From an uncultured Bacteroidales bacterium (GTDB taxonomy: Bacteria; Bacteroidota; Bacteroidia; Bacteroidales; WCHB1-69), in the NCBI GenBank assembly GCA_900319925.1, contig ONQE01000006.1, positions 23,487-77,359 of the forward strand: a stretch of 53,873 nucleotides of DNA, written 5' to 3'. Both the position numbers and the translations under genes were made by a program. The notes beneath the pieces were generated by a model, which ran no database searches, was not told the DNA's origin, and saw only the letters and a list, made by a program, of their open reading frames with translations. Of the stretch, positions 12,914-50,209 are shown in pieces; position 1 is the stretch's first letter, and each line of letters starts with the position of its first letter.

Positions 12914-12973
12914 GACTTGAGACGTAAGACTTTTAATGTCTCACGTCCCAAGTCCCATATCTCAAATCTCAAA
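12914..12973. repeat. Heptamer array A, folding as a hairpin downstream of the FKBP operon
   Basis: About eight 7-bp units (GACTTGA, GACGTAA, then CTCACGT, CCCAAGT, CCCATAT, CTCAAAT, CTCAAAC) fill the gap between tex and the last FKBP gene. The left units and their near-complement form an inverted repeat: GACTTGAGACGTAAGAC (12914-12930), 7-nt loop, GTCTCACGTCCCAAGTC (12938-12954), 15 of 17 positions complementary. It directly follows the stop codon at 12974-12976 and may act as the operon's 3' hairpin, although there is no clean T run. Confidence 0.7.
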
Positions 12974-13837
12974 CTACTCATTCACAATCTCCAACAGCTC
13001 GATGTCGAACACCAGCGGGGAATACGGGGGGATACCCTGACGGCCCTCGCCGTAAGCCAGGTCTGAGGGGATGAGGACGGTCACCTTGTCGCCGACCTTC
13101 ATATCCGAGACGGTAGCATCCCATCCGGGAATCACCTGACCGGCACCCACCGTGAAGGTGAACGGCTCGCCACGCTCCACAGAGCTGTCGAACACAGTAC
13201 CGTCCACAAAACGACCAGTGTAGTGGACTTTGACAGTCTGCATAGGCTCCACCTTCGGGCCCGTGCCCTTCTTCACACTCTTCACATACACACCCGTGGC
13301 AGCCTGTTTCAGACCGGCATTCTCTTGCAGATACTTTTCAATTTCGGCTTTTTCTTGGTCTTTTCTTTCGGACAGCTGGGCCTCATATTCGGCTTTGGCC
13401 TTCTCGAAATCGGCCTTCTTCATCAGACCGTAGAGTTTCACATCGAGGTAAAGCGGATCCTCGCCGAACTCATATTCCTGGCCGGGGTTCATCATATTCT
13501 CGAAGAACTTGGGGCCGTCAAAGATAAACGTTGCGCTATCGCCCACGTGCATCGAACGAAGTGCGGCGAACATGTCACCCTCATAAAGGGAGTCCATCAG
13601 CATCTCCTGAGGTATCATAGGAATCAACAGCGAGTCGCCGGCGCGCAGCGACATAAGGATACCCACCAAGTCACCGGTCGCAGGCTGGTCGGCCGTATCA
13701 TGGATATCGCCGTGGAACTGATAGTAGAATCCGGATTTATCCTTCTTGAAACCTTTGTATTTGCTACATGCACCCAAGGCGAAAACGGTGGCCACTGCCA
13801 ACCCAATCAACATTAATTTCGTTACGTTTTTTCTCAT
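12974..13837 (-). CDS. FKBP-type peptidyl-prolyl isomerase lipoprotein
   Basis: The 287-residue precursor has a lipoprotein signal (lipobox LGAC, Cys24). Residues about 30-140 form a degenerate FKBP-like half (GDLVGILMSLRAGDSLLIPM, SATFIFDGPKFFE). A helical linker rich in Lys/Glu follows. The C-terminal FKBP domain is canonical (VKVHYTGRFVDGTVFDSS, FTFTVGAGQVIPGWD, LAYGEGRQG). The C-terminal domain should be an active prolyl isomerase on the periplasmic face of a membrane, probably a folding factor for exported proteins. It is the last gene of the NrnA/FKBP operon, 35 nt after its paralogue. Confidence 0.9.
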   Translation of the reverse strand: MRKNVTKLMLIGLAVATVFALGACSKYKGFKKDKSGFYYQFHGDIHDTADQPATGDLVGILMSLRAGDSLLIPMIPQEMLMDSLYEGDMFAALRSMHVGDSATFIFDGPKFFENMMNPGQEYEFGEDPLYLDVKLYGLMKKADFEKAKAEYEAQLSERKDQEKAEIEKYLQENAGLKQAATGVYVKSVKKGTGPKVEPMQTVKVHYTGRFVDGTVFDSSVERGEPFTFTVGAGQVIPGWDATVSDMKVGDKVTVLIPSDLAYGEGRQGIPPYSPLVFDIELLEIVNE

Positions 13838-13872
13838 TTTTTTTCTTTTTTGGTATTATTATTGATCATTCT

Positions 13873-14727
13873 TTATCGTGATTGAACTCGCAACAGCTCG
13901 ACTTCGTAGACCACGGGGGTGAAGGGCTGGATGCCGAAGTCGGTACTGCCCTTGTCGCCGAAAGCGAGCGAAGAGGGAAATATAGCGGTGATCTGGTCCC
14001 CCTCGTTCATCTCCTGCACCATAATATCGATGCCACGCGCGACCTGATCCTTCCCGATTACGAAAGAACAAGGATGCGCCGGGTCAAGCATACAGTCGAA
14101 CTCGGTGTTGTCGACGCGACGGGCCTTATACAGAATCTGGGCGGTCTGATTTTTCCTCGCTTTCGCACCGCCACCCTTACGGTTGATGGTGTAGTATATC
14201 CCCTTGTGGACATTGTCGAGATGGTTCTCGTTGGCGTAAGCCTTCACCAGGGAATCCTCACGCTCCCGCAGTTCCTTGCGCTTAATCCGGTATTCTTCCT
14301 CAGACTCGGCAATGCTCCGTTTCGAGAGTATCTTCAACAGCTTGACATCGGCATGGATAGGTGTTTTCCCATACGGATACTCACCCATGCCGAGAAACTC
14401 TTCGTAGAACTTCTTCCCCTCGAAAATAAACGTCGCGCTGTCACCGATGTGCATCTGTCGCAAAGCGCTGTAGATGTCGCCACGGTAGAGCTCATCCATC
14501 AGCATATTGTTGCGCGTCATCGGCGAGAGAACCTCGTCGCCGGCGCGCAGGGCCATGTTCACCTCCACAAAATCACCGGTTTGGGGACGTTCGCCGTTGC
14601 TGTTCCTTTGGTGGTATTGGTAATAATAGCCGGCACCGTGCTTGAAGCCGCTATATTTCCGACAAGAGGTTGCCGACAAACACAGCACAACGGCTAAAAA
14701 AATCCAGGTCAAACTTCTCATCTTCAT
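13873..14727 (-). CDS. Divergent FKBP-like lipoprotein
   Basis: The 284-residue precursor has a lipobox SATSC (Cys22) and the same two-domain plan as its downstream paralogue: an N-terminal half with GDFVEVNMALRAGDEVLSPM and SATFIFEGKKFYE, a charged linker, and a C-terminal FKBP fold. The C-terminal domain keeps the fold markers (AQILYKAR, IGKDQVARGID, LAFGDKGS) but has lost several ligand-pocket residues, including the VHYTG Tyr and the W of IPGW, so isomerase activity is doubtful. It starts 3 nt after the upstream gene. An alternative ATG two codons in (MRSLTW) is possible. Confidence 0.85.
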   Translation of the reverse strand: MKMRSLTWIFLAVVLCLSATSCRKYSGFKHGAGYYYQYHQRNSNGERPQTGDFVEVNMALRAGDEVLSPMTRNNMLMDELYRGDIYSALRQMHIGDSATFIFEGKKFYEEFLGMGEYPYGKTPIHADVKLLKILSKRSIAESEEEYRIKRKELREREDSLVKAYANENHLDNVHKGIYYTINRKGGGAKARKNQTAQILYKARRVDNTEFDCMLDPAHPCSFVIGKDQVARGIDIMVQEMNEGDQITAIFPSSLAFGDKGSTDFGIQPFTPVVYEVELLRVQSR

Positions 14728-14730
14728 TGC

Positions 14731-15315
14731 TCAGTTCGTATAAGATTGTGGGATAATGGTCTGCGGAAGCTGCTCGTCCTCTTTCAGCACATCGACTTCC
14801 ATCATAAACGGTTGGAGTCCGGAGATACGGTCGCCGTCACCGGCAACGCCATAACCGAGGTGCGACGGGATGACCAGCCGCGCCTTCGCACCCGGACGCA
14901 AGAGCTGTGCCGCTTCGTGCAGAGCGTCGATCTCCTCCGAGCGGTTCACCACGAAAACCTTCACACCGTTGCTGTCGGAATTGTAGATCTGCTCACCGGA
15001 GAGCAGGAACGTGCTGTAGCGCATCGCCACTCGGTCTCCCTCCACGAACAGCTCTCCGCTGCCGGGATCCAACACTTCGACATACAAACCCGTGGGGGTG
15101 CGTTGCATCTGCCAGCCATACCGTTTAATGAACATCTGCATCTCCTCGTTCTCCCGGCGCATGATGTTCCGGTTGCCCTCCATATAAGGAGACTCCTTTT
15201 CCCCTTCTGCATTTTTGGTGGAAAGGACAACCTGCCCCGTGCCCCTACGGTCGTGACACGACACAAAGGCACTGACAAGTATCGCTAAGAGTATGAGGGA
15301 CAGAATCTTGCGCAT
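14731..15315 (-). CDS. Short FKBP-like lipoprotein (GldI-like)
   Basis: The 194-residue precursor has a lipoprotein signal ending VSCHDRR (Cys20) and one FKBP-like domain (GELFVEGDRVAMRYSTFLLSGEQIYNSDSN, LVIPSHLGYGVAGDGDRISGLQPFMMEVDVL). In size and plan it resembles GldI, the FKBP lipoprotein linked to gliding in Flavobacteriia, but no other gliding gene is nearby, so I do not assign that name. It sits 3 nt from the NrnA-like stop and 3 nt from the next FKBP start, which indicates tight translational coupling. Confidence 0.8.
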   Translation of the reverse strand: MRKILSLILLAILVSAFVSCHDRRGTGQVVLSTKNAEGEKESPYMEGNRNIMRRENEEMQMFIKRYGWQMQRTPTGLYVEVLDPGSGELFVEGDRVAMRYSTFLLSGEQIYNSDSNGVKVFVVNRSEEIDALHEAAQLLRPGAKARLVIPSHLGYGVAGDGDRISGLQPFMMEVDVLKEDEQLPQTIIPQSYTN

Positions 15316-15318
15316 AGA

Positions 15319-16335
15319 CTATTGTTGTAGCTCGGCGGTCTCACGAACGGCGTTCAGGAAATGGGCGATGGCATCCTCCATCGTGCCGTGGTAAAAGGCA
15401 CCAGCGGCATTGGCGTGCCCACCTCCCTCGAAATACTTGCGGGCGAACAGGTTCACATCCACGATACCCTTGGAACGGAACGACACGCGTATGCGGTTGT
15501 CGCGCTCCGTGAAGAAAGCCGTGTAATGCACCGTCTTCATCGACAGCCCGTAATTCACAAAGCCCTCGGTATCACCAATTTGGAAGCCATTCTCCGTCAA
15601 GTCCTTCTTGGTCAGATACATATAAGATGCCCCATATTCGGGCAGCACAGTCATACGCTGAGAAAGGGCCAACCCGAGCAGCTTCATGCGACTCTCGGTA
15701 TAGTTGTCGTACACCCTGCGATGAATCTCCTCGCCGTTCACGCCGGCTTCGATGAGACGGCGCAACACCGTGTAGGATTCGGGAAAATCGCAAGTGTAGG
15801 ACATGGAGCCAGTGTCGGTAATGATACCCACATATAGGCAATCGGCAATCTCGCGGGTAACCGGTTTTCCAGGAGCAAGATACAGATACAGAAAGTTATA
15901 GACGAGCTCAGAAGCGGATGTCGTCAGATGCGTGGAGTACATCACATCGCAGTTGATCTCAGGCTGCACATGATGGTCGATGAGCACCTTGAAAGCCGTT
16001 GACTTGAGAAGGGAGTTCTGGAGATCCTGACCCGCGCGATGCGGGGCGTTCATATCGACCACAAAGAGCATGTCAGCCGCCTTGATGCGTTTCCGTGCCT
16101 CCGTGAGGTTCTCCTGCGCCACGATGATACTCTCCGCACCCGGCATCCATTGCAGAAAATCGGGGAACGGATTCGGGGATATCACCGAAACGTCATAGCC
16201 TTCGTCTTTGAAATAGTGGTAAAGCGCCAGCGCACTGCCCACAGCATCGCCGTCAGGGTTGAAGTGGAAAACGATGGTGATGGCCTTCGTCTCCTTAAGC
16301 GCGGCCTGAATCTTTCGTATGTCCTGTTCTTCCAA
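15319..16335 (-). CDS. NrnA-like DHH/DHHA1 phosphoesterase
   Basis: The protein matches bifunctional oligoribonuclease/PAP phosphatase NrnA: FNPDGDAVGSALAL (motif I), DMN, the DHH motif IDHHVQPE, ITDTGS and the DHHA1 motif GGGHANAAGAF. It would finish RNA decay by hydrolysing nanoRNAs and could clear 3'-phosphoadenosine phosphate. An ATG frame extends to 16392, but a promoter -7 element (16356-16363) lies inside that extension, so I prefer the TTG at 16335, which gives 338 residues starting EEQDIRKIQ. It is the first gene of an operon with three FKBP lipoproteins. Confidence 0.88.
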   Translation of the reverse strand: MEEQDIRKIQAALKETKAITIVFHFNPDGDAVGSALALYHYFKDEGYDVSVISPNPFPDFLQWMPGAESIIVAQENLTEARKRIKAADMLFVVDMNAPHRAGQDLQNSLLKSTAFKVLIDHHVQPEINCDVMYSTHLTTSASELVYNFLYLYLAPGKPVTREIADCLYVGIITDTGSMSYTCDFPESYTVLRRLIEAGVNGEEIHRRVYDNYTESRMKLLGLALSQRMTVLPEYGASYMYLTKKDLTENGFQIGDTEGFVNYGLSMKTVHYTAFFTERDNRIRVSFRSKGIVDVNLFARKYFEGGGHANAAGAFYHGTMEDAIAHFLNAVRETAELQQ

Positions 16336-16355
16336 CGTATCAGATTTTGAAAGCG

Positions 16356-16363
16356 CAAAAATA
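16356..16363 (-). promoter_or_regulatory. -7 element inside the extended NrnA frame
   Basis: On the minus strand this reads TATTTTTG followed by CGC, a strong TAnnTTTG match. It would start transcription near 16349, downstream of the ATG at 16392, and so decides the start in favour of the TTG at 16335. The leader would be only about 15 nt. Confidence 0.6.
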
Positions 16364-16416
16364 CAATTTTTTAGGGAATGAGCGGCATGCAATAAGAACT
16401 GTATTCGCGCATAGAG

Positions 16417-17085: not shown

Positions 17086-17102
17086 AATTCAATTTTTCAA
17101 TA

Positions 17103-17200
17103 CACAAATCTCAAATCACAATTCACAAATCTCAAATCACAATTCACAAATCACAAATCACAATTCACAATTCACAAATCACAAATCACAAATCTCAATT
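17103..17200. repeat. Heptamer array B (CACAAAT family, 14 units)
   Basis: Fourteen in-phase 7-mers: CACAAAT, CTCAAAT and CACAATT variants in mixed order with no phase break. It fills the gap between trmB and the ABC exporter. Variation is confined to a few positions within the unit. It has no coding potential. Confidence 0.9.
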
Positions 17201-17251
17201 CACACGTACTACCGAGCTCTTACCCCTTACGGGGTTGCTCAAGGAAAAGTG

Positions 17252-17279
17252 CTAACAGCTAACTACTAATTACTAATTG
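17252..17279. repeat. Heptamer array J (CTAACTA family) inside a gene 3' end
   Basis: CTAACAG, CTAACTA, CTAATTA, CTAATTG: four in-phase units. The last three form the stop codon and final codons (LVISS-stop) of the ABC exporter gene on the minus strand. Confidence 0.75.
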
Positions 17280-19025
17280 ATAATACGCTCCCTTCCGAGC
17301 CATCAACTCCTCATGCGTGCCCTGCTCCACCACGCACCCGCCGTCGAGGACGCAGATACAGTCGGCGTGTTGGACAGTGGAAAGGCGATGCGCAATCATC
17401 ACAACCGTATGCTGCTTCGACAACGCCTCCACCGACTGCCTCACCAACATTTCCGATTCCGTGTCCATGGCGGAAGTGGCCTCGTCAAGCACCAACACAG
17501 GAGCCTTGCGCAGCACCGCTCGTGCGATACTCACGCGCTGCCGCTGCCCGCCGGACAACGCAACACCGCGATCGCCCACCACATGATGAAAACCATCGGG
17601 CAGCGACATCACGAAATCGTAGATGTTAGCGGCTTTGGCAGCCTCCTCCACCTCGGCCATCGTAGCAGGGCAACCCAACGTAATATTGTTGTATATCGTG
17701 TCATGGAAGAGCATCACATCCTGCGACACCAACGCAAACAGACGGCGGTAGTCCGCCACCCGATATCGGCTCACGGGAACGCCATCCAACAGAATCTCAC
17801 CACCCGAAACATCGTAGAAACGCATCAGCAGGTCAGCGAGAGTGGACTTGCCCGCACCTGAAGGGCCCACCAACGCCACCGTCTTCCCTTTCGGCACCGT
17901 CAGATCCACATGGGTGAGGACATTGGCATCCGAATAGGAAAAGGAGACATCGTGGAAGTGAATATCCCGAGTAAAACCCTCGACAGGCAAGGCATCAGCA
18001 GAATCCTCCACATTGTCCTCTATGGCGAGAAATTCGCGGATACGATCCATGGCCGCCTCGCCACGGCGAAAATCAGCAAACGCAGACGAGATATTCGAGA
18101 CAGGCGTGATGATTTGAGTGAACAGGGCGATATAGGTAATAAAGAGTTCTGCCGTCAGACCAGAACGCTCGGAGAGGACCAATGTTCCGCCTATGACCAA
18201 AACCACCATCACAGAAGAGACGCCAAGGAACTCACTCAACGGATTCGCCAAGTAACTCTGCCGATAGACTTTCTTCTGGTTCTGGTGAAACTCTTGGTTA
18301 AGACGAGCGAACTTGCGGTAAGCCCGCTCTTGAGCGTTGAAACCGTAGATAACACGCAAACCCGCCAAGGTCTCCTCCACATGAGCGAGTAAGACTCCGA
18401 GTCGCTCGCGGTAGGTCTTCGACGAGCGCTTCAGCAGATGCGCCAGGAAACCGATGATCAAGAACGCCACCGGCATCAACAGCACCGCCCAAAGGGAAAG
18501 CTGATAATCAATATAGAAGAGGAAGGCGAGGTAGCAAATCAGCGCGACAGGGTCTGTAAGGAACTTTTGGATTGAAGTCAGTACCGTGTATTCCACCTCC
18601 TGGGTATCATTCACCGCACGGGTCACCGCGTCTCCGCGGCTCTGCTTGGTGAAATAACCCAACGGTAGTGAAATCATCTTGTCATAGAGACGGTTGCGCA
18701 ATCGATAGAGGAAGTCGCTGCGCACATGAGCCATCACCCACTGCGAACCGTATGCGGCTAGATTCCTCAGAAAGAACAGCAACACCGCACAAACGATAAT
18801 CACCACCATCGATCGAGAGAGATTATCCAAGGGCACGAGCACTGCTATCTTATCCATCACAAAAGCCGACACCGGACTCAACCCCTCCAACGTTCCCCTG
18901 AACAGCAGCTTCACAAACGGCTCTATCATCACAAAGGTGAAAACCGTCAAGAGGACATAGAGAACATTCAACAAGAAGACCCCAAGCAAACGGAAAAAAT
19001 AACGAGAAACAAAAGCGCGTACCAT
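17259..19025 (-). CDS. MsbA-like ABC exporter (fused permease and ATPase)
   Basis: The 588-residue half-transporter has six membrane segments in the first 320 residues, then a nucleotide-binding domain. Walker A is GPSGAGKST (about 386), the signature is LSGGQRQRVSIARAVL (about 490), Walker B is VLVLDEATSAMD (about 512), with an H-loop IAHRLST. This is the family of MsbA-type lipid A flippases and multidrug exporters in the inner membrane; Bacteroidota orthologues are usually annotated as lipid exporters. Its final residues LVISS and its stop codon are encoded by heptamer repeats, so the original C-terminus may have been replaced. Upstream is heptamer array C without a canonical promoter. Confidence 0.9.
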   Translation of the reverse strand: MVRAFVSRYFFRLLGVFLLNVLYVLLTVFTFVMIEPFVKLLFRGTLEGLSPVSAFVMDKIAVLVPLDNLSRSMVVIIVCAVLLFFLRNLAAYGSQWVMAHVRSDFLYRLRNRLYDKMISLPLGYFTKQSRGDAVTRAVNDTQEVEYTVLTSIQKFLTDPVALICYLAFLFYIDYQLSLWAVLLMPVAFLIIGFLAHLLKRSSKTYRERLGVLLAHVEETLAGLRVIYGFNAQERAYRKFARLNQEFHQNQKKVYRQSYLANPLSEFLGVSSVMVVLVIGGTLVLSERSGLTAELFITYIALFTQIITPVSNISSAFADFRRGEAAMDRIREFLAIEDNVEDSADALPVEGFTRDIHFHDVSFSYSDANVLTHVDLTVPKGKTVALVGPSGAGKSTLADLLMRFYDVSGGEILLDGVPVSRYRVADYRRLFALVSQDVMLFHDTIYNNITLGCPATMAEVEEAAKAANIYDFVMSLPDGFHHVVGDRGVALSGGQRQRVSIARAVLRKAPVLVLDEATSAMDTESEMLVRQSVEALSKQHTVVMIAHRLSTVQHADCICVLDGGCVVEQGTHEELMARKGAYYQLVISS

Positions 19026-19044
19026 TAATAGACCTTAATAACTA

Positions 19045-19142
19045 TAAACATTAAACATTAAACATTAAACCCTAAACCTTAAACCTTAAACCTTAAACCC
19101 TAAACCTTAAACCCTAAACCTTAAACATCAAACCTTAAACAA
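19045..19142. repeat. Heptamer array C (TAAACCT family, 14 units)
   Basis: Fourteen in-phase 7-mers: TAAACAT three times, then TAAACCC and TAAACCT variants, ending TAAACAT, CAAACCT, TAAACAA. It lies between the giant-protein terminator and the ABC exporter start. It has the same unit count (14) as array B, but a different unit. Confidence 0.9.
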
Positions 19143-19197: not shown

Positions 19198-22100
19198 TTA
19201 TCTCGCCATACGGGCGACAATAACTTTCTTCGTCACAACGTCAGCGTCGGTGCGGACCGTCATGATGTAGGAGCCGACAGACAAGCCGTTGACACCAAAT
19301 TCGAAGTAGTAGTTGTCGTTGTCGATGTAAGTTTCGCCGCTATAGACAACCTTACCAGTCAAGCTCGTGAGGGTCACGATGGCGTTGCCGTTCATATTGT
19401 GGACGCGAGCCTTGAGGGTCGTGGTCACAGCAGGAGCCGGGTTCGGCCAAACTTCCATATCAGGAGTGACTGCAGTTTCGTCAACACTCAGGACAGGAGC
19501 GACCTCAGGAGTCACAGGAGTCTCGTCAGCAACATCGGAAGGAGTAGAGTTCGGGCCAGTGACGTTGACAATGATAGAATCCGTGACAAGAAGCTTGAGA
19601 CCAGGTTTGTAAACCAAACCGTTCTGACCACCGAGGTGAGCGGTGTCATGGTAATTGAGACCACCCATGTGGTAGTTGTCCTCATAGTAGAGGTGGTTGA
19701 AGTCATCCTCGTGAGTAGTGGAGTAGAGTCTGTACACAACCTTGTACTCACCATTCAATCTGAACGGAACGTGCGTGGCATCCACCTTACGATCACCGAT
19801 GAAGTGCAACCAGAGATCGTCGTAAACGTTAACGTTGGTCAAACCGAGGTTGGTGTTCGGGAAGTGGTTACCGGCAGTAGCGACTGACGGATTAGCAACA
19901 GCGTAGTTGTACAGAGAAGTGTTGGAATTCGGAGAAGGAGTTCCATAGATGGACTGACCATTCAACCAGCCGAAGGATTGAGTAGAGACATACGGGAAAG
20001 TTGCGCCATACTCATTTGTGAAAATCTGAGTAGCGAAATACTCACCAACATGATCGTTAGAGATGATCTGACCATTGTAATAGAGGTCGAACTCCACATA
20101 CACAAGCTTGTCAACCATATCGCAATTGGTGTTAATCATCCAACCGTAGTCAAGGCCAACGGAAGCAGTGGAATCAGTGGCATAAGTAACAGCCTCGTAA
20201 GTGTGAGTAGCATTGACAGAACCATCAGCATTGTAGAAGATGAACTCAGGTCTGTCGGTGACTCTCACAGAAGCACCCGTCAGGGAAGAACCGACACAAC
20301 CGTTACCGTCAACAACCGTGACATTGGCAGTGGTGAACTCGACACCGTCAGCATAGACGTCAACGAAGATAGAGTTATCCGTGGTCGGCATCGTAGCAGG
20401 AACCATGTTGTCATAGTTACCCGTCACAGTGAAGTTGTAGCTGACATAACCAGGAGTTGCAACATACTCGATAGTCTCACCGCTACAAGCCTTGGCAGGA
20501 CCCGTAATCGTAGGAACAGGCAGCGTGTCGACGATAAGCGTCAGCGTGTCGCGGACAAGACCGCAAGCAGCACCGTTGTCATTGAGAGTGACAACCAACT
20601 TCTTGCCATTGTACTCAGCAGCAGTCAGGACAGTGTTGAAGTCGAATTCAGTACCATTGATCGTCCAAGCGGTATCATACTTGTCTTCGTTACCATTATA
20701 GGTGACGTTGAAACCAGTGTTCGCAAGCGTGATCTTCTGGCCTTCACAAATCTTGATTTGATCATTCAACGTAATCTCAGGAACGTCGTTGATGACAATC
20801 TGCTCGAACCAATCCGTGTAGACGGTCTCATCACATTCAGTGACCCAAGCGTAACGTACCCAAATGCCATAATAATCATTATACGTATCAAGATCAACAA
20901 CATACGTAGCCGGATCAACGGTATGGATAATAGCGTCATAAACCTCCCAATGAGATTCACCGGCCACCAGTTGAGCAGTACCAGTCCACTGAGGTTGAGT
21001 GGCGATGAAGGCGTTCAACACATCACCATTACAAGCGGGCTTGTAGGTAGGATCAACATGATTGTACGTCAGAACAGTAACCTGAGCAAAAGCCGTATCA
21101 GCACCGCAGTTCGGGGTAATGTTCGGAGTAGCAATCACTCTGATCTGGTCGCCCGTCTGGAACGGAACAGCAGCGTTCATGGCCAGGATATTAGTTCCAC
21201 GAACCACTTCGTAGGTCGTGGTGACCTCGGAAGGAAGATAGTTGGCGTAGTCATTGATCACAGCGTTGACAGTGGTAACCATCGCATCAACGGTGACGTT
21301 CGGACAAACCGTGACATTGGAAGCAGTGACATCCAACTTGCCAAGGATACGGAGGTCTTTGACCAAAGCAGTATCTTTACCACACTGGTTCGTCACGAAG
21401 TAGTAAACGAAGGCGTGAGGCAGAGCCTTGACAGCATTCACCAAAGCGTTGACATCAGCGACTGCCGTGTAATCAGCATCGGCATTGGCCTTGTACAACC
21501 AGCCTTGAGAAGTGGCATAATGCGTTTCAATAGCAGCAGTCAGCATCTGAGCGGCATCATCAACACACATATCAGAAGGAAGTTGTCCAATGGTAAGTGT
21601 CGGCAGAGGATTCACCGTAATCGCAACCGTATCAGAGGTCACATTATTCTCGCAACGATCAAGCATAGTGAAATAAATCTGCGTACCATTCTGAGAGTAA
21701 GTCAACACAGAACCGTCAGTAATATAACCAACAGTGGGCAAAGTATGAAGTTCCATATCTTCGAAATCACCCGTCACAAAGTCACTGTAGTGCAACTGTT
21801 CACCCTCACAATAGGTCTTGGGCAGGATGTGGTAGATAGTAGTGTCAACCACGATGGTAGCAGAAGCTGTAGTGTCAAGACAGAGACCATTAGCATTCAC
21901 AATGTTCAGGCTCATAACCTTATTGTGGTGCAGATAGTATCTCGGAGTGAAGGTGTAGGAAAGCTCAGCTTCCTCGTCATTAACCGTGTAAGTTTGAACG
22001 GTATTACCGTCAATCTTCAAAGTAACAGTGGCCGGATGACCGAAGGAAGAAACCATGAAGTTAATTGTAGCAGGCGAATTGTTACAATAAGAATCCTCTA

Positions 22101-25100
22101 AACCGAAGGTGTCGATAACCGGAGCCTTGCTCACGTCAAAGATAACGTCAGACTCAGCCTCACCGCAAGAGTTGGTTGCCACATACTTCACAATATGCGT
22201 GGTAGCAAACTCATAGTCAACAACGGTAGTGGCAGGAACCTCTACAAAGGTATTACCAGACTTGTACAAAGCCAGCCAAGCTGTGTTATTGGTGTTGAAA
22301 TCGTAAGAAGCAAAACGCGGAGATTGGGTATTGTACTTCAAATAACGACCCGTATGCTGAGCATTACTGATCTGGATATTCGAACCGATCATGGAAATAT
22401 TCCACTTAGCATTCGGAGCATTACCATCTTCAGTCAATTGAATTCCGTTAGAAGTCAAGCCCGCCGCATACTTGCCGATAGCAGCATTGTAGATAGAATA
22501 AGTGTTATCTTCATTCTGAGAAATCGTCCAAACACAGGAGGGAGCGACGTAATCGAATTGAGTAACATTCATTGCATCTAATGCATTACCCAAAGCCTGG
22601 TTAGACATAGCCTTTGTAGAAGTTGCATTGGTAATCATATAATCACCATCAGTAAGCTGAGACAAAGAAGTAACTTTAGTGTAACCAGAGTTTTCAGTAT
22701 CTAAGGCCATCCACTTAGTAGTACCCTCCAAACCATTCCAGTTGAGTTTGAATGAATCCACAAAGTCAGCCAAGGTGTAGTTCTCATTCTCACAGAACGG
22801 GTCCACAACCAATCTGGCAGGATCAATCTCAGGAGCAGCATACAACGTGATATTGTAAGTCACGATGCTGTCGCAACCCTTCAGCACACTCGTGTAGGTT
22901 CTCTCAACAGAGACGGTGTAAGGATAGGTGGCATCAGCGGGTTTCGTGATGATGTCGTTGGGGTTGATTTCGTAGGTCACACAGGCATTGGCCGTAACCG
23001 TCTCGTGGTCAAGGCGCTTGATAACGATAGGCAGGGAAGCGATGTTGGAGACACAACCTTGATCGCTATGAGACCAGGCACAGAAGGTGTTCGTGTCAGC
23101 CATCGTAGTACCGACAGTGTCGATCTGGTAACGTTGACCAACATAACCAAGCGTCCAGTTCGTATCGACAAGCGTCTTACCGTTAACAGAGTAAACTTGG
23201 ATAGAAATCGGATCATTCTCGCAGAAGTAAAGCGGCTCATCGAGATCAGCCTGCGTGTAATGAACGTCATTGACCACGAAACCGAGGACCGGCTTGGCAT
23301 TGACAATCACGCGAACAGTGGTATCGTAGCTGCAGCCCGTCAGCTCATTGTGAACCGTGAGGACATACAAACAACCAGCAGGCATGACGTGATCAACGAT
23401 GACGTCGATCGTGTTCGTGTTGGAGTAGCTCGGATCGGAGCAAGGAGCATTCCACTCATAGGTGAACGTGCCGGCACACTCGCTGCCATCCTCATAGTAA
23501 GCGTTACCAATGAGTTGTCTGGGTTCGTCACCAATACAATAGGTGAACGGAGCCGTATTACCATCATTGTCAACAATCGTGATCGTAGGAATACAATCGC
23601 TGTAAGAGATAGTAGCAGAACCTTCAGCCTCGCAAAGAGCAACGACATCCTTCACATAGAAACTGTAGCTCTTATTGGCGAGGTCCGTGAAGACATTGCT
23701 GACTTGCCAGTTTTCACCATCAAGGCTGTAGTTCAGAACAGCGGCAGGATTCGTGCTGTGAGCATAAATCGTAAGGGTACCGTCACCATCAACCTCGCTA
23801 CAGTAAGTAGTCGGAGTGGTCACAGTGCTGTCGACAATAACCTCGTAGAGATCGTCTTCCACAGAGATGTAACCATCAACAGTACAACCCGTCACAGTAT
23901 CGACAGCCAAGACGTGGTAACGACCAGCAGCGAGCCAATACTTAGTATGAGTCAACGGAAGCTCATAAGGCACCTCCATATTGATATTGTCGTCATTAGC
24001 ATCAGAGAAATAGTACATGAAGAAGTGAGCACCAGGAACGGTCTCAGTAGTCGGGACTTCAACCTTCACAGTACCGTCACCGGGCTTCTCAAACGTAGGA
24101 GCACACATGTGGTTCGGTGTGGAAACGAGCTGCATAGCCGGGAGTTGGTATTGATTGACCGTAATGGTGTCGGTCTTGACACAACCATAATTGGTAACAG
24201 CCGTGTAGGTATAAGTGCCGCTGGCCAGGTTGCTGAACGTAACCTGAGTGGCCGTGGTGGCAGAATCCTTCCAAAAGTCACCCATCTCAATCATATAGAG
24301 AGCCATCTTGGCATTACCGTAAGCGGTAACATTCATCGCAGAAGCATTGGTGTTCTTTAACGTAATGGTACCCAACTCCTCAACGCAAGAGGTGTTGATT
24401 GTGGAAGTGGCGGTGATAGCAGGATTGATGGTGTTTTTCTCAACATCGACTTGCTTGGTCACGCGGCAATAGTTGTTACCAATAGCCTCGATCTGGTAAG
24501 TACCTTCGTACAAGGAATTCCAAGTATAAGTAAGAGATCTCGGAGCAATCGTATCATAGGAGAAGTAACCATGCTTCTCAAGCAAAGCGAACTGACGGAA
24601 AGTGGAGTGGTTGCTCACAGTAATGGTACCGTCGGCAGTGTCAGCCACACAGAAATGGTTGGGAGTGATGTTGGTATTGATCGTCGGAGTAACGATAGTG
24701 GTACCAACAGTGACTCTTGCAGCGTTAAGAGAGCTACAACCCGTAGCAGGATTATAAGCAACGATGAAATAGCTGATAGGAGCAAGGTCCTTAATGGGGT
24801 TGTTGGTAGAATTGAGCGTAACATTGTTCAAGAGAGTGTCACCAGCAGCGGTATAAACCGTGTATTGCCAATTAGCATTGGAGGTAATACGAATTTGACC
24901 GTTGTAAACATTCTCAGGATTATTGTTATAATTGGTGTTATCGCAATTCGTGTTAGCAGTGACAGTCGTGGTAACCTCAGGTCTCGGAGCAGCATCTTCA
25001 AGAACGAATGTGGTATCATTCGTACAATGCGTGGAGAGCTGGATGGTATGGATGAGGTAACGACCCACAGAAAGGTTATTGTAGGAAGTAGCCGTGCCGA

Positions 25101-28100
25101 CGAGTTCGCCAAGGGCAACATCATCGAAACGATAGAGTTCATACGTGTAACCATTCTGAGCACTGATGTTCAACACACCATTGTCATTGGTACAAACGGT
25201 AACATCATTAGTAGTGAACTGAGGATTGATAGGAGCATTGCTGTTGTCGAGAATCTCAACTTGATAAGAACGCTCACAATCGTTAACGGTGTAAACCGTG
25301 AGGGTGTACATACCGGGTCTCAGAGAATCGAACGTAATCGTGTTCCACTCCGTGGGTTGATGGTCAGGATTGTCGGAAATCTTGAAGAAGTGGAAGAAAT
25401 CGAAATCGTTATGCTGCAAGTTGTAAGCATAACCCGTAGGAGCATGATTAACAACCAAAGCACCATTGAAGCGCTCGCACAAAGTGTTGGGCCACTTCTG
25501 AAGCTCAGGATCAGCACCTTGGAAATAGACCGTCAGGTTAGCGGTAGCGGAAGCGGTGCAACCGAGGGCATCCTCGATATTCACTTGGTAAGTGTAAACA
25601 CCAGGCTCCATAGCACCCTGGACATGATAGTTGGCACCATCATTGTTCAAGAGGTCATCATCGCTGCCAACGAGTACCCACTCGTATTCGACATCGCCAA
25701 TGGCGTTCGTAACAACGCTGGAGAAGTCAACACCAACTGCTTCGATTTCGCTCTGGCAGTCAGCAGCAGTAGCAGGATCAATAGTGACAGTCAGAACCTC
25801 AGCGGGTTTCAAGACATTCACCGCGAGGGAGCTGGTCTTGCCGCAAGGATTCTTGACGGTGATGGTCACAACACCAGTAGCAATGGTCAGCTCAGTGCCG
25901 GCAGCAGGGCTTTGGGTGTACCAATCGTCGCGCTCAATCGTAGCGAAAGCGTCAGTGTATTTAATCTGGTAGAATTCATAGCAATCGTCGGAAACGAGAT
26001 CGCTGGTAACGAGATCCTTGAAATCAGGAATAACGAAGATACAACCCTCTTGTTTCACAAGCGTGGTGTCCGGAATAGCGTCGATGAATTGCGGACCTTT
26101 GGCCTTAGCTTCGATGGTGTCGGTAACAGTACCCACACAACCGCGGTCGTCAACAACCGTCACAGTAGGATAGTACAACGTGTCGCACCACTCAGGAACG
26201 ATCGTCACCCAAGTCGTGTTGATGTGCGGAATGTCATTGACACTCTCACCGCTCCAAGTGTAAGCATTTTCAGCAACAGTCTGGCCTTCGACAGGATTGA
26301 CGATCACAGCTTGAATCGTGAGGTTACCATAGGTCGGGCAATAAGGCTCAACCTGGCCGTTCTCCACGATGTGGTTGATGATCACCTGCGGCAGAGCGCG
26401 GACATTGATGGTGATAGGCTCAGTCTCAGCTGTACAACCGTTACGGTCAGTGACAACCATCTTGAAGACGTAGTCGCCAACGCCCGGGAACGTGATGTCA
26501 GTCGTCGTGTCGGTAGCGGCGGTGAAGTTGACGGTTCTGCCGTTCACTTCAACCCACTCGTAGGTATAAGGAACGAACGGTCCAACGACGGTATCGTCCT
26601 TAATGTAAGTAACGTCGAAATGCAAAGTGGCGGTGTCGCCAAAGCAGTTGTTACCAGTGCTGGTGATAGAACCGGGTTCAATAGAGATTTTCTGCGGACG
26701 ATCGAGGAAGATAATATCTTGAGCATAGACATTACCGCATCTGTCGGTGATTTGAGCAACCACAGAGAGGTGATTCTTAGATCTGAAGATATTGGTACCG
26801 CCGATCGGGGATTCGTCAGTGTTCTCCCAGAAGAACTTCACCGTGCTCATCAGGTAAGCGCTGTCGGTGCAGTTGTCAGCCACATGCGGGGCAACAGCAT
26901 TGATGAACGTCATGCTGTCGGGAGAGTTGAAGGTGCAGTTGCCGCCCTCAACCGGGAAGAGACGCACATACGGGAACTCGCCCTCTTCGAAACGGAAGAA
27001 AGGCTTCGTAGTGTCGCGGGTCACATAAACGTGAGCGAACGTGACGGCATTGCCGCAATGATCCTTAACCGTGTAGGTTCTGGTCACGGACTCCACACAA
27101 GTGGTGTCAGAAATGCTGTTCACAGTAGTAGCGACATTGGCGATGTAAAGGAGATCCTTAGCGCAGTTGTCGCTGAACTCGATATCAGCAGCATTCTCAA
27201 GAGCGGCGATGGTCGTGTAAACAGGAGCGTTAACGCTATCGAGATGACAAGCGAAAACTTCCGTCGTCACCGTATTGTGATCAACCGTAGGAGCGATCGT
27301 ATCATTGGAGATGTAGTTGAAGGTCACAGGAGCGGACTTACAGCCGTTGCCATCGACGACATACACAGAAGCGGTGTAAGCGGTGTGGCAAGTATCCGTG
27401 GCATCGGTCTGGTTGTAAGCAACCTGATTCTTAGCTGCGGTGGTGTAACCCTCGCCGCTGACCAAGAGACGGATGTTAGGACGATAGCTGTTCACCTGTT
27501 TGCTGCTGGTAGCAGGGACAAACGGATTAGCACCGTAATATCTCATCACAGCATTGGTAGAGCTCGTATAGTTGAAGTACGCGACAGAACCAGCGACACC
27601 GGATTGGTCGTCAACCGTGATAACAATGTTCTGGGTGCCATCGTAAACGAAACCGTTCTGGAGTTCAATCTCTTTCCAGCCGGCAGGGCCGTTGAAGCTG
27701 AGGTTACCGCTGTAAACAAGGGTACCGGGCTCAAGCCACTGCTTGTTGGAATTGTTGAAGGAAACCGTATTCGTAGTGCCGATGTAAATCTTCACGTTCT
27801 CTCTCGTGACTAGGTTCGTGCCGGCATATTGGAAAGCGATCTTGGTGATCTCACCAGCGGCAAGGCTGGAGGCGGGAAAAATCTGTTGCGTGTAGTTGTA
27901 CTTGGCCTCGTTGCTGAAAGGATAAGCAGCAGACGTGGAAGTACCGGTACCAACGATGATCGTCTGAGCATCGACGAAAGCAACTTCGGAGCCGTTAAGC
28001 ATCACGGAGGTCACATCGCCGTCCCACTTGTAGGTGTATTGCGGGTCGGTATCGTTGGTGATGACATTGACACCCATCTGGACTTTGGTGCCGGGGCAGA

Positions 28101-29841: not shown

Positions 29842-29956
29842 ACCGTTTTTGTTTAATTTGTAACTTATATTATTTATTTTTCTCTCTTTCAATTCCTTTT
29901 TTTGCCTTTAAGTCAACACTATACATTACTTTACATTATACATAATTTTTAACCTG

Positions 29957-32259: not shown

Positions 32260-32277
32260 CTTCTAGCAAAATACATC

Positions 32278-32340
32278 GTGACTTATGACTTGTGACTTGT
32301 GACTTGTGACTTATGACTTGTGACTTATGACTTGGGACCT
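32278..32340. repeat. Heptamer array D1 (GTGACTT family, 9 units)
   Basis: Nine in-phase 7-mers: GTGACTT and ATGACTT alternating irregularly, last unit GGGACCT. It lies 18 nt upstream of the PorE-like start, where its promoter should be. A near -7 word (TATTTTG on the minus strand) lies between array and start codon. Confidence 0.9.
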
Positions 32341-32372
32341 TAATCGCTCACACTTACGATTCGCCGCAACTA

Positions 32373-32435
32373 CTAACTACTAACTACTAACTGCTAACTA
32401 CTAACTGCTAACTACTAACTACTAACTGCTAACTA
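32373..32435. repeat. Heptamer array D2 (CTAACTA family, 9 units)
   Basis: Nine in-phase units of CTAACTA or CTAACTG. The last unit contains the mazG stop codon (CTA at 32429-32431, TAG on the minus strand). D1 and D2 share one gap but have different units. Confidence 0.9.
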
Positions 32436-36551: not shown

Positions 36552-37925
36552 ATGAAAAAAATAGCAACATTCATCATCGTGATCATGGGTCTTTTCGGAC
36601 TCGCCAGCGCACAAGGTGACTACGAAGCACTCACCTTCTCGCAGTTCGACTACTGGGGCACGGCGCGTTTCGTGGGTGCCGGCGGCGCCTTCGGTGCCAC
36701 GGGCGGCGACTTCTCCGCGCTCAGCACCAACCCCGCCGCCATCGGCCTCTTCAAACGCTATGAGACGTCAGTCACCCCCATGCAGCTCAACTTCGGCTAC
36801 ACCGACACCTGGTACAACGGCGACAAGAGCTCCGCACAGAAGTTCAAATACACCGTCCCGCAAGCCGGCGTCGTGTTAGCCCGCGACATCCGTCTCGACA
36901 ACGGGTGGAAGAAATGGCAGTTCGGTTTCGGCTACAACCGCATCACGGACTTCAACCAGACCTTCCGCGCCAACACGCAGATCAACAAGAACATCCGCAT
37001 CGACCACCTGGCGCTGCAGGTCTCCGTGATGGAGATGAACGTGGAGCGCGAGGCCATCACCTCCAAGACCTGGTACATGGTGGGCAGCAAGCTGACCGCC
37101 ACCGCCGAGACCGCCGGCAACTACGGCGACAAACTCTTCATCGGCGCCACCCTCGGATTCCCGTTCCTCGACTTCAAAGAAAACGTCACCTACAAGGAAA
37201 GCCCCGCCGACTTCGACGACCTCTACGGCATCAACAGCTACACACTCTACTCCACCCAGCGGAACTCCGGAACAGGTGTCAACTTCAAAATCGGCGCCAT
37301 CTACCAACCCGCTGACTTCGTGCGCATTGGCGCCTCCTTCCACACGCCGACCTACTATTGGACCGTCAAGGATTACTTCTATCGCGAACTGGTCACCAAG
37401 TTTGCCTATCCGCTCGACAACGGCGCCACGCAACTGGACTACACCTATGAAAACGCGAACTCCTTCTCGCTGACCACCCCGCTGAAATTCAACGTGGACG
37501 CTTCCTTCCTCATCGCCAAGCGCGCCTTCATCGCCGCCGAATACGAATATCAGGATTACGGAATGGCCAAGCTCTACGCCGACAACTACGATTATATTGT
37601 GGAGAATCAAACAGTTAAAGCCAAATACGGCGCTTCCCACACCGTGCGCGTGGGCGCCGAGGTCAACGTCACGCAAGGGTTCGCCCTCCGCGCCGGCTAC
37701 CGCCTGAAGACCTCCCCCTACAAGCTGACCGAAGCCCCCTACAACAACACCGCCCACTTCATCTCCGCCGGTCTGGGCTTCCGCGGCAAAGTCATGTTCT
37801 TCGACCTCGCCTACGTGCTGCGTATGTGCAAAGACTCCTACTGGCTCTACGACTCCTTCGGCACCCCCTGCAACATCGCCTCCAAGACCCACAGCGTAGT
37901 CGCCACCATCGGCTGCAAGTTCTAA
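36552..37925 (+). CDS. OmpP1/FadL-family outer-membrane transport protein
   Basis: The 457-residue protein has a Sec signal (MKKIATFIIVIMGLFGLASAQ). Just after it is the segment GTARFVGAGGAFGATGGDFSALSTNPAAIGLFKR, which matches the hatch region of FadL/TodX-type porins for hydrophobic compounds. The rest is alternating beta-strand sequence with many aromatic residues, ending in Phe (IGCKF), as expected for an outer-membrane barrel. Its stop codon is the first TAA of heptamer array E. It may share a transcript with the upstream lipoprotein and downstream secreted protein. Substrate unknown. Confidence 0.9.
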   Translation: MKKIATFIIVIMGLFGLASAQGDYEALTFSQFDYWGTARFVGAGGAFGATGGDFSALSTNPAAIGLFKRYETSVTPMQLNFGYTDTWYNGDKSSAQKFKYTVPQAGVVLARDIRLDNGWKKWQFGFGYNRITDFNQTFRANTQINKNIRIDHLALQVSVMEMNVEREAITSKTWYMVGSKLTATAETAGNYGDKLFIGATLGFPFLDFKENVTYKESPADFDDLYGINSYTLYSTQRNSGTGVNFKIGAIYQPADFVRIGASFHTPTYYWTVKDYFYRELVTKFAYPLDNGATQLDYTYENANSFSLTTPLKFNVDASFLIAKRAFIAAEYEYQDYGMAKLYADNYDYIVENQTVKAKYGASHTVRVGAEVNVTQGFALRAGYRLKTSPYKLTEAPYNNTAHFISAGLGFRGKVMFFDLAYVLRMCKDSYWLYDSFGTPCNIASKTHSVVATIGCKF

Positions 37926-37984
37926 CCCATAACCCATAACCCATAACCCTTAAACCTTAAACCTTAACCCTTAAACCTTAACCC
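37922..37984. repeat. Heptamer array E (ATAACCC to TTAAACC, 9 units)
   Basis: Nine in-phase units: CTAACCC, ATAACCC three times, TTAAACC twice, TTAACCC, TTAAACC, TTAACCC. The first unit supplies the porin stop codon (TAA 37923-37925). The array ends 4 nt before the TTG start of the next gene, so it fills nearly the whole gap. Confidence 0.9.
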
Positions 37985-40643: not shown

Positions 40644-40652
40644 CATTTTTTA

Positions 40653-40694
40653 GTGACTTGTGAATTGTGACTTGTGAATTGGGATTTGGGATTC
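40653..40694. repeat. Heptamer array F (GTGACTT/GTGAATT, 6 units)
   Basis: GTGACTT, GTGAATT, GTGACTT, GTGAATT, GGGATTT, GGGATTC: six in-phase units between the -7 element at 40636 and the fucP end. The unit is shared with array D1 (GTGACTT). Confidence 0.85.
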
Positions 40695-40715
40695 GGGAGC
40701 GGTGAGGGGTGATTT

Positions 40716-42805: not shown

Positions 42806-44128
42806 TCACCGTCCTATCTGCCCCATCACGTTCCCCACCGCCGTGGCCTCCACGTCGCCGGTGGTGACCTTCAGACCCGTGGCCTGGGCCGTGAGCTCGT
42901 TAAGCAGGACATTCTGCGAGCCGCCGCCGATGATGTGCAGCCGCCGCACGGGCTCCTCCAACATCGTGTTCAGCTTGCGGATGGCCGTGGCGTAGCGCTT
43001 CGCCAAACTCTCCAACACGCAGCGGACCGTCTCGCCGCGTGTGAGCTCGCGCCCGACGGCCGTGAAGATGGCCTTCTGCATAGACTCCGGCGCAGTGAAC
43101 GCACTGTCATCCACGTCGATGAGCGGGACAGACTGCACATCTCGCGCCTCTGCGGTCATGGCGTCCCAGTCGTCGGTACGCCACTCCTTGGCTAACTGCT
43201 GCAGAATCCAGAGTCCAGTGATATTGCTGAGGAAGGTGATCTTGCCGTCGGCGCCGCCCTCGTTGGTGAAGCCCGCGTCGCAGGCCTCAGGGGTCAGGAT
43301 CGGCTCGCTCACCGTCACGCCGAGCAGACTCCACGTGCCGGAGGATATCCAGGCGGCGGGCTCGTCGAATCCGGGGATGCTCATAACAGCCGATGCGGTG
43401 TCGTGACTGGCCACGGCGACGACCTTCACCGTCGGGGCGAGTCCCGTCTCCTCGGCGATGTGCGGCAGGATGGGGCCGCGCACGGTGCCGGGCATCACGA
43501 TCGGACCAAACAGCGAGCGGGGCAGCCCCGCGTCGTCGATGAGTTCCCAGTCCCAGTCGCGGGTGCGGGCGTTGAGCAGCTCGCTCGTCGAGGCGATCGT
43601 GTATTCGTTGTTGGCGACACCGGTGAGGTAGTAGCTGAAGAGGTCGGGCATGAAGAGGAGCTTTGCTTCGCTTGGAAGCGAAGACTCCTGGGGGAGCGAA
43701 GACTCTTGGAGGGCCAGCAGTTGGAACAGCGTGTTGATCTCCATCACCTGCGTGCCGTTGTGGGCGTAGTGCTCGTGGCGGTCGCGGGTGGCGAAGTAGC
43801 GCTCGGGGAGGCCCTTCGTGCGTGCATCGCGGTAGCAGACGGGCAGTCCGAGGAGATGCCCTTGCCGGTCGACGAGTCCGAAATCGACGCCCCACGTGTC
43901 GATGCCGATGGAGACGATGTGTTCGCCGAAGCGCGCGGCGGCCATGCGCAGCCCGTCTTTCATATCCTGGAACAGCGCGGGGAAGTCCCAGTAGAGAGTG
44001 TCGCCGAGGCGCACCTGCCGGTTCTGGAAGCGGTGGATCTCTTCGAGTCGGACCTTCCCGTCCTCCAGCCATCCGGCCATCACGCGGCCGCTGCCGCCGC
44101 CGAAGTCACATGCGAGGTGGATATTCAT
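42806..44128 (-). CDS. rhaB: Rhamnulokinase, C-terminally shortened
   Basis: The 440-residue FGGY-family kinase phosphorylates L-rhamnulose at O1. Visible are the N-terminal ATPase motif CDFGGGSGRVMAG, the catalytic region IDTWGVDFGLVD, AWISSGTWSLLG, and the C-terminal IIGGGSQNVLLNELTAQATG and VEATAVGNVMGQ. The frame stops directly after GQIGR, where relatives continue for roughly 40-50 residues, and nothing homologous follows in any frame, so the C-terminal helices are missing. A tandem duplication encodes QESSLPQESSLP near residue 142. No rhaI, rhaA or rhaD is adjacent. Activity is uncertain. Confidence 0.85.
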   Translation of the reverse strand: MNIHLACDFGGGSGRVMAGWLEDGKVRLEEIHRFQNRQVRLGDTLYWDFPALFQDMKDGLRMAAARFGEHIVSIGIDTWGVDFGLVDRQGHLLGLPVCYRDARTKGLPERYFATRDRHEHYAHNGTQVMEINTLFQLLALQESSLPQESSLPSEAKLLFMPDLFSYYLTGVANNEYTIASTSELLNARTRDWDWELIDDAGLPRSLFGPIVMPGTVRGPILPHIAEETGLAPTVKVVAVASHDTASAVMSIPGFDEPAAWISSGTWSLLGVTVSEPILTPEACDAGFTNEGGADGKITFLSNITGLWILQQLAKEWRTDDWDAMTAEARDVQSVPLIDVDDSAFTAPESMQKAIFTAVGRELTRGETVRCVLESLAKRYATAIRKLNTMLEEPVRRLHIIGGGSQNVLLNELTAQATGLKVTTGDVEATAVGNVMGQIGR

Positions 44129-44247
44129 AAGGGTTAAGGGTTAAGGGTTAAGGTTTAAGGGTTAAGGTTTAAGGGTTAAGGGTTAAGGTTTAAGGGTTAC
44201 GGGTTAGGGGTTAAGGTTTAAGGGTTAAGGGTTAGGGGTTAAGGGGC
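44129..44247. repeat. Heptamer array G (AAGGGTT family, about 17 units)
   Basis: The longest array: AAGGGTT with AAGGTTT, ACGGGTT and AGGGGTT variants, all in phase from the base after the rhaB start codon. It lies between the rhaB -7 element (44285) and the ATG, so it would form most of the mRNA leader, read as TTAACCC-type repeats. Confidence 0.9.
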
Positions 44248-44260
44248 AGACTCATATTGC

Positions 44261-44443: not shown

Positions 44444-44806
44444 ATGGATGACATCTACATGCTTTCCGACATAGTAATCCAACTCAAGATTGGAGAACGT
44501 CTGAAACAGACACGACTGAGGCAGAACATCACGCAAATGAGTCTCGCCGAGGAGGCCGGCGTGTCCCTCTCCTCCATCAAAAAGACCGAAAAAGGGGAAA
44601 TAGGCTCGTTCGACACGTTGCTGAGAATGCTGCGGGTTTTGGGTCTGCTTGACATACTTCAACAGCTGGTTGACGATCCGCAACCGACCCCGAACGAATA
44701 CTACGAGATGGTTCATTCTTCCAAAACAAAGACCAGGAAACGGGCCGCAAGCGCGCCTCGCAAATCGGGGAAGGAGGAACCTGCTTCAATAACCAATAAC
44801 CAATAA
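44444..44806 (+). CDS. HipB-like HTH regulator without a HipA partner
   Basis: The 120-residue protein has an XRE-type helix-turn-helix (IGERLKQTRLRQNITQMSLAEEAGVSLSSIKKTEKGEIGSFDTLLRMLRVLG, residues about 16-67) of the HipB antitoxin type, followed by a basic tail. In HipBA loci the kinase toxin hipA follows directly; here nothing like hipA is present. The last residues (ITNNQ-stop) are encoded by a CAATAAC heptamer array, so the 3' end, and possibly a coupled hipA, has been replaced. An alternative start is Met6 at 44459. It may repress its own promoter and rhaB. Confidence 0.8.
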   Translation: MDDIYMLSDIVIQLKIGERLKQTRLRQNITQMSLAEEAGVSLSSIKKTEKGEIGSFDTLLRMLRVLGLLDILQQLVDDPQPTPNEYYEMVHSSKTKTRKRAASAPRKSGKEEPASITNNQ

Positions 44807-44821
44807 CCATTGACCACGTAA
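44787..44821. repeat. Heptamer array H (CAATAAC) running into a promoter
   Basis: CAATAAC three times, then CATTGAC and CACGTAA in phase. The first units encode the C-terminus of the HipB-like protein; the fourth carries the TTG of the promoter at 44810. Confidence 0.75.
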
Positions 44822-47261: not shown

Positions 47262-47283
47262 GGTAATCGAAAATCCCGAGACT

Positions 47284-50049: not shown

Positions 50050-50057
50050 ATCTGTAG

Positions 50058-50143
50058 CGTGTCTCCGACACGCCACCTTCCGCACGCACCGCCCACCCCA
50101 CACTACAAGTGTGGGGTTATTAAGATTTCGTGCCTCCGGCACG
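50058..50143. repeat. Two matching small hairpins flanking the terminator
   Basis: CGTGTC-TCC-GACACG (50058-50072) and CGTGCC-TCC-GGCACG (50129-50143) share a plan and the TCC loop, and bracket the operon terminator. They look like copies of one short palindromic element. Confidence 0.6.
50096..50116 (+). terminator. Terminator of the restriction-modification operon
   Basis: CCCCACACT, loop ACA, AGTGTGGGG: a perfect 9-bp stem followed by TTATT, 47 nt after the stop at 50049. Confidence 0.85.
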
Positions 50144-50146
50144 GGG

Positions 50147-50209
50147 CTAACTGCTAACTACTAACTACTAACTGCTAACTACTAACTGCTAACCAATAAC
50201 CATTGACCA
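50147..50209. repeat. Heptamer array I (CTAACTA family, 9 units)
   Basis: CTAACTG, CTAACTA twice, CTAACTG, CTAACTA, CTAACTG, CTAACCA, ATAACCA, TTGACCA: nine units in phase. The unit matches D2 and J. The last units are also the left part of the 49-bp repeat and carry the promoter TTG. Confidence 0.9.

Follow-up and report, generated by a model that had tools for sequence, protein, structure and literature searches.

The heptamer arrays in the 53,873-nt stretch of DNA analysed here (the window) are probably the arms, mostly gene-less, of intervening-sequence-like elements that carry a single PF05635 (S23p, Avd-like) gene. They are likely to be leftover ends of mobile-like elements because elsewhere in this genome, in its genus and in other phyla the PF05635 gene often lies between inverted arrays that match each other. 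No PF05635 gene is present in the window itself. Neither the heptamer repeats of bacterial gaps nor the S23p/PF05635 family has so far had an accepted explanation.

Heptamer arrays in the window, the genome and the genus

Tandem Repeats Finder and a lag-match scan (periods 3-12; 17 or more identical positions out of 21 at lag p) agreed on eleven period-7 arrays in the window, with about 103 units in total. Other periods were rare: none at 4, 5, 8, 9 or 10, one each at 3, 6 and 12, and two at 11. The original prediction of eleven period-7 arrays and about 100 units was borne out by both scans, and the heptamers it listed are present, with variants. The array that it placed at 12914 is the weakest, and only 12945-12973 passes the scan. 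This array has the unit TTTGAGA on the minus strand and lies directly past the stop of an FKBP gene. A GTGATTT/GTGAATT array of 14.6 units (17103-17204, minus strand) is found upstream of a TrmB-like gene. The remaining arrays were read on the plus strand. A short CTAACTA-family array (17251-17278) lies at the stop of an ABC-transporter gene, and a TTAAACC/CCCTAAA array (19036-19135) immediately upstream of the ABC-transporter start. Two arrays form a composite, in which a G-rich GTGACTT arm upstream of an OmpA-family gene (32276-32340, trimmed to 32276-32338 as an array) and a C-rich CTAACTR arm at the MazG gene stop codon (32368-32434) are separated by a 27-nt core (32341-32367, plus strand) with four copies in the genome. 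A TAACCCT/TTAAACC array (37917-37984) fills the gap between a FadL-type gene and the next ORF, a GTGACTT/GTGAATT array (40651-40698) lies upstream of a saccharopine-dehydrogenase-like gene, and a TTAAGGG/TTAAGGT array of about 18 units (44123-44248) fills the gap upstream of an FGGY-kinase gene. The last two are a CAATAAC array of about 4 units (44787-44816) and a CTAACTR array (50146-50202) downstream of a T5orf172-domain gene. The description of the arrays as intergenic holds for most of them; the exceptions are 17251-17278, which overlaps the last bases of the gene at 17259-19025, and 37917-37984 and 32368-32434, each of which overlaps a stop codon.

Other features of the window were recorded alongside the arrays. 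Positions 50281-50456 hold period-11 arrays of GGCAAGGAGTT together with an inverted pair, AGTTCTCCGTG and ACGGAGAACTC, separated by a short loop. With 13 arrays, period 11 ranks second to period 7 in the genome sample. A single ORF of 3564 aa occupies 19198-29892, between the ABC-transporter and OmpA genes, and a strongly diverged homologue is found at the same place in relatives. A dispersed hairpin module, TTCCTTRAGCAGYCCCG..GGGRCAAGAGCTYGGTAG, is present at 17205-17258 of the window, near 3707 of L072 and near 7577 of L083. It was picked up near G-side arrays; 12 of its 32 matches follow an array at a distance of up to 40 bp, and only the clear copies count because the reversed control gave 13 matches against these 32. 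The ABC-TrmB gap of L031 and L030 contains a palindrome like GTAGAGACGCAAAATTTTGCGTCTCTAC, which we take to be reminiscent of REP elements.

In 639 kb of the 3.12-Mb genome that contains the window, we detected 113 period-7 arrays, six of which are coding by midpoint, using gene calls from a simple codon-usage caller written for this analysis. The same 639 kb had 0, 0, 3, 5, 7, 0, 13, 5 and 0 arrays at periods 4, 5, 6, 8, 9, 10, 11, 12 and 13, respectively. This sample comprised 37 stretches including the window, after four all-N stretches had been dropped from 41. Evenly chosen contigs or ones already in use supplied 21 of the 41; the other 20 were contigs from earlier pattern searches, most with a CTAACTA match, so that the array density is possibly somewhat high. 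Extrapolated to the whole genome, the sample gives about 550 period-7 arrays. The original prediction named the lack of a period-7 excess as the result that would count against it; when the comparison was run, an excess was found (113 arrays, with no other period between 4 and 13 exceeding 13), and it is genome-wide and lineage-specific, with few units per locus. A search with the CTAACTA x3 pattern (up to 3 mismatches) returned 522 overlapping matches and none for the reversed control, and 33 of 60 genomes, including that of the window, showed at least one match in the pattern search. An array-dense clade of the genus has 15-29 arrays per 100 kb, with only 5 in its member G063, and a sister clade within the genus has 2.

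The dominant unit families in the genome of the window are TAACTRC, TTAAACC/TTAACCC and TCACAAR. The probability that two of its arrays share a unit is 0.087, compared to 0.0015 for random intergenic heptamers, which speaks against the earlier view that the arrays do not reflect the spread of an element. TAACTRC is common to related species and other units differ between species: AAACCTT and AACCCTT account for 18 and 11 arrays in the genome sample, and for 0 and 1 among the 127 arrays of relatives. At an orthologous gap the unit differs from species to species, and close species may retain the unit and alter its copy number, as for GATGAAT in the ABC-TrmB gap (21.6 units in L035 and 5.1 in L040). 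Selection for stop codons was considered and rejected; 96% of the units in this genome contain a stop on at least one strand, compared to 81% of shuffled units, and the choice of strand is left unexplained by it.

The arrays have a marked polarity. Of the 19 TAACTRC arrays in co-directional gaps of the genome of the window, 17 have the GTTAGYA orientation relative to the gene, and 16 of these 17 start at positions -13 to +1 relative to the stop codon. Arrays close to a stop alone (within 6 nt, n=38) contain 27.5% G and 8.3% C in gene sense, and those close to a start alone (within 12 nt, n=19) contain 29.5% C and 4.3% G; nine arrays touching both a stop and a start are C-rich. The same skew was seen in relatives (37 stop-side and 15 start-side arrays), in which three arrays touching both are not C-rich. 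General gene-flank composition does not account for this, as non-array flanks have no such skew (5' C.19, G.17; 3' C.23, G.20). In gaps with several arrays, a G-rich array is followed on the plus strand by a C-rich one 33 times and the reverse order occurs 0 times; the remaining consecutive pairs are seven GG, six CC and three with a balanced member. This order of paired arrays is new here, and a similar strand rule has already been described (PMC4692102). With four balanced arrays set aside, 180 of 233 arrays, including 86 of 110 in the genome of the window, obey the strand rule by nearest gene. The window is a poor example of it: with the present gene calls, among its nine non-coding arrays only those at 12945, 32368 and 44123 obey the rule, five break it (17103, 19036, 37917, 40651 and 50146), and the outcome at 32276 varies with the OmpA gene start that is chosen.

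PF05635 genes between inverted arrays

A small gene was seen between inverted arrays in gaps of L031, L036 and L061, and it belongs to family PF05635. The product of this family is the 23S-rRNA intervening-sequence protein (S23p), a four-helix bundle and Avd homologue, and a hand-translated member matches PDB 2gsc (E 7e-19). PF05635 was found in 40 of 40 genus genomes, including that of the window. The latter has six matches, the four strongest of which (L245, L253, L254 and L255) have a G-rich array on the left and a C-rich array on the right; the two weakest have no arrays. In L255 the element fills its gap wholly. Its left arm (1344-1385) overlaps the end of the upstream ORF (1354), the PF05635 ORF spans 1492-1866, the right arm spans 1856-1896 and the next ORF starts at 1897. 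The arm units of L255 belong to the CTAACTR family, as in the window, and those of L253 and L245 are GGTTATT/CATAACC and GTGAATA/GTGATTG.

The best arrays at 30 genus loci (one per genome) were G-rich on the left and C-rich on the right in 15 cases, reversed in two and lacking in three; the rest were one-sided, balanced or same-sided. Counted over the genus PF05635 arrays, the opposite strand was seen as C-rich arrays on the left in 3 of 22 and G-rich arrays on the right in 6 of 23. Period-7 arms on both sides, G-left and C-right, were present at 16 of 35 loci of the genus and the genome of the window. At 12 of these 16 the two arms are reverse complements within one mismatch (permuted mean 2.1; 0 of 5000), and the units differ between loci. 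In gene-less array pairs, the arms match in 5 of 28, which is no better than chance (permuted 3.9, P 0.33), and the difference between pairs with and without a gene is significant (Fisher p 3e-4). Arrays beside PF05635 genes also have periods of 6, 8, 9 or 13, at odds with the strict 7-nt copying step suggested originally, and in several cases both arms of one locus agree on a period other than 7: 6 in L235 and L237, 8 in L247, L266 and L282, and 13 in L251. The polarity of L235 and L237 is fully reversed. Comparison of the left flank with the reverse-complemented right flank gave a median score of 33.5 (60 loci, 5 skipped), against 18 in both permuted pairs and 200 random genes. An array lies beside PF05635 at 26 of 30 usable genus loci (5 of 35 skipped), compared to 114 of 361 control ORFs. 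Array load does not follow the number of PF05635 genes (506 pattern matches with 7 genes in G026; 50 with 18 genes in G002). In the predicted RNA fold of the L031 element, the two arms pair and enclose the gene (z -4.25; other strand -3.79; 20 shuffles each). A reverse transcriptase was rejected as a partner: searched for with one family, RVT_1, it was detected in 9 of the 40 draft genomes of the genus, with a partial match in the genome of the window, and it is absent from array-rich genomes such as G026 and G012.

Across the phylum, PF05635 is present in 157 of 198 genomes, including that of the window. The best-scoring match per genome gave a usable ORF in 27 of 30, and an array of period 5-9 was found within 350 bp at 16 of these 27 loci, compared to 13 of 134 control ORFs taken from 20 stretches of these phylum genomes (p 7e-8). 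An arm-match score of at least 30 was reached at 11 of 27 loci and 2 of 134 controls. No array of period 5-9 was found within 350 bp at 11 of the 27 loci. Twenty of 21 phylum genomes with a TAACTRC array match carry PF05635, against 157 of 198 overall, which is only suggestive of a phylum-wide association.

We also analysed 21 genomes whose titles name other groups, although these were picked for carrying TAACTRC arrays; among them are Chlorobium and an Ignavibacteriae bin, both assigned to Bacteroidota in some taxonomies. PF05635 is present in 15 of the 21. In 30 loci from these genomes picked for arrays, the left side was G-rich in 20 and C-rich in 1, the right side was C-rich in 18 and G-rich in 0, and the median arm score was 30 compared to 17 when permuted. 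Among eight PF05635 loci on cyanobacterial plasmids, two of which have the same PF05635 protein, seven are flanked by an array, three of them on both sides; the locus on a Nostoc edaphicum plasmid has the arms GGGAACA and TGTTCCC. In two of the eight (L345 and L346), the gene is part of a cas cluster, with cas6 and cas4 on its two sides in one case and cas10 and a cmr3-family gene in the other. From the genome and genus to the phylum and other phyla, the units that flank many PF05635 genes are 6-9 nt long, mostly 7, and as a rule the 5' array is G/T-rich and the 3' array A/C-rich. The occurrence of PF05635 genes within matched inverted arrays of one unit, other phyla included, is new.

Origin of the gene-less arrays

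The four armed PF05635 loci in the genome of the window face about 550 arrays (extrapolated). In the sample, 71 of 112 arrays are within one mismatch of a unit from one of these arms. When four loci were drawn from the 12 of relatives, a mean of 23.6 and a maximum of 57 of the 112 arrays matched; the link between arm and array families is weaker than this control implies because shuffled arm units from the same genome already match 44 of 112 on average (P 0.077). The ABC-TrmB gap offers a direct comparison, as relative G007 (L036) has a full PF05635 element with a GTGATTT left arm there, and the window has the GTGATTT array alone. No decayed pieces of PF05635 were detected by tblastn beside solo or other arrays of the genome sample at E <=0.05, where only the known L072 gene was recovered.

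The composite at 32276-32434, an array pair with its core, has four copies in the genome, two of them with the full 3 mismatches that the pattern allowed; the reversed control gave 0. Each copy of the core lies between a GTGAYTT-type and a CTAACTR-type stretch. The flanks of the four loci are unrelated, and blastn similarity centres on the composite and ends with it, apart from some matches resembling arms at the end of one locus. Since similarity at the four loci stops with the composite, it appears to have been copied as a unit despite its differing arms, which again speaks against the initial view that no element had spread. Its recurrence at four places is new, and such dispersed copies of one structure are a MITE-like feature. 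In five sister genomes, the MazG-OmpA gap is 13-41 bp long.

We propose that elements would enter such tiny intergenic gaps, with the result that their arms end against stop and start codons. The transcript of an element would fold into a long stem closing over the gene, and the element could then sit between two genes without harm; this tolerance may parallel that of the classic IVS in 23S rRNA, as far as the available part of PMC4990558 describes it. Because the original gaps would be tiny, elements would nest, with later ones landing only within earlier ones, and the G-rich-then-C-rich order would persist. Loss of the gene would leave solo or mismatched arms, and slippage together with template switching between paired arms would extend the arms and hold both to one unit.

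The reverse sequence of events, in which 7-nt slippage with a polymerase preference builds the arrays and PF05635 genes merely insert into existing pairs, is unlikely. Slippage does not predict the 33:0 order, the sharing of units across loci, the non-7 periods common to both arms (6/6, 8/8 and 13/13) or the four copies of one composite, and arms match more often around PF05635 (12/16) than elsewhere (5/28). It would agree with the great excess of gene-less arrays over genes and with orthologous arrays such as GATGAAT, which vary in copy number and not in unit. Mrazek et al. 2007, as cited in the available part of PMC4679880, reported that in most genomes long repeats are most often heptanucleotides, for which they proposed a polymerase contact length. 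We give still less weight to the arrays being repeated sites for RNA-binding proteins in 5' and 3' untranslated regions that are held by selection. Many arrays do abut stop or start codons with a preferred strand relative to the gene, and S1, Csp or Csr proteins have been suggested (available part of PMC4679880); the many unrelated units, the species-specific repertoires and the turnover at orthologous gaps argue against such sites.

Telomere-like healing, in which a break within a gap would gain G/T-rich heptamers at its two 3' ends before being rejoined, was our first reading of the polarity and was set aside once a gene was found between the arms. It predicts a G strand that points outward from both gene ends as well as mismatched arms in gene-less pairs, and units of the TTAAGGG and CCCTAAA type are present. 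It is nonetheless highly improbable, as it leaves unexplained both the PF05635 genes inside matched arms and the fourfold recurrence of a mismatched pair with its core, and few genus genomes (9 of 40) gave an RVT_1 match. A broader version of the PF05635 reading is possible and is offered more tentatively: the intergenic heptamer arrays of Bacteroidota, Cyanobacteria, Xanthomonas and others may all derive as arms from a single class of mobile intervening elements that spans phyla, with an Avd-like four-helix-bundle protein acting on a heptad-phased stem. If so, two old puzzles, short tandem heptamer repeats and S23p/IVS proteins, would become one system, a widespread class of mobile elements whose remnants shape untranslated regions genome-wide, and the strand rule of Rehm et al. 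would gain a cause. Cultured cyanobacteria and Bacteroidota would allow a direct test of the physical link between arrays and PF05635.

Comparison with known systems

In the open literature searched, with most subscription journals and preprints outside its scope, we found no publication tying the PF05635 protein or its synonyms to heptamer arrays. Heptamer arrays in Bacteroidota have been described before, contrary to the earlier statement that no equivalent was known there: the available part of PMC4679880 (MacGregor 2015) reports TAACTGA heptamer repeats in five Bacteroidetes and includes cyanobacteria. Those repeats share with the present arrays a period of 7, a mostly intergenic location and proximity to gene ends, and TAACTRC is one base from TAACTGA. 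In that part of the source they comprise one unit, mostly forward and upstream of start codons, whereas here there are many units and TAACTRC lies mainly past stop codons, in reverse. The GGGNATC-type heptamers of Xanthomonas and Nostoc (PMC4692102; Rehm 2015) follow a strand rule for which the available part of the source gives no cause. The preference is common to those repeats and these arrays, namely the coding strand after stops and the non-coding strand before starts. They were proposed in the same text to form G-quadruplexes; most units here lack GGG. We rejected G-quadruplexes for the present arrays, which do not supply four G-tracts of three; GTTAGTA and GTGATTT contain no GGG, and only TTAAGGG-type units could qualify.

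There is a close likeness to the IVS in 23S rRNA with an S23p ORF, for example that of Coxiella burnetii, in which, according to the available part of PMC4990558, the PF05635 ORF also lies within complementary stem-forming ends. Of these two hallmarks, the PF05635/S23p ORF is found at the gene-bearing loci and not in the window, and stem-forming terminal inverted repeats are found at 12 of the 16 loci with both arms, with no array at 11 of 27 phylum loci. Unlike the ends described there, the ends here are tandem arrays of 6-9-nt units, and loci with inspected neighbours sit between protein genes rather than in 23S rRNA (ABC/TrmB in L036, cas in L345 and L346). PF05635 resembles Avd in sequence and structure, as stated in the available part of PMC10053308. 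Unlike a diversity-generating retroelement with Avd, these PF05635 loci could be tied to no reverse transcriptase in the RVT_1 search of the genus genomes.
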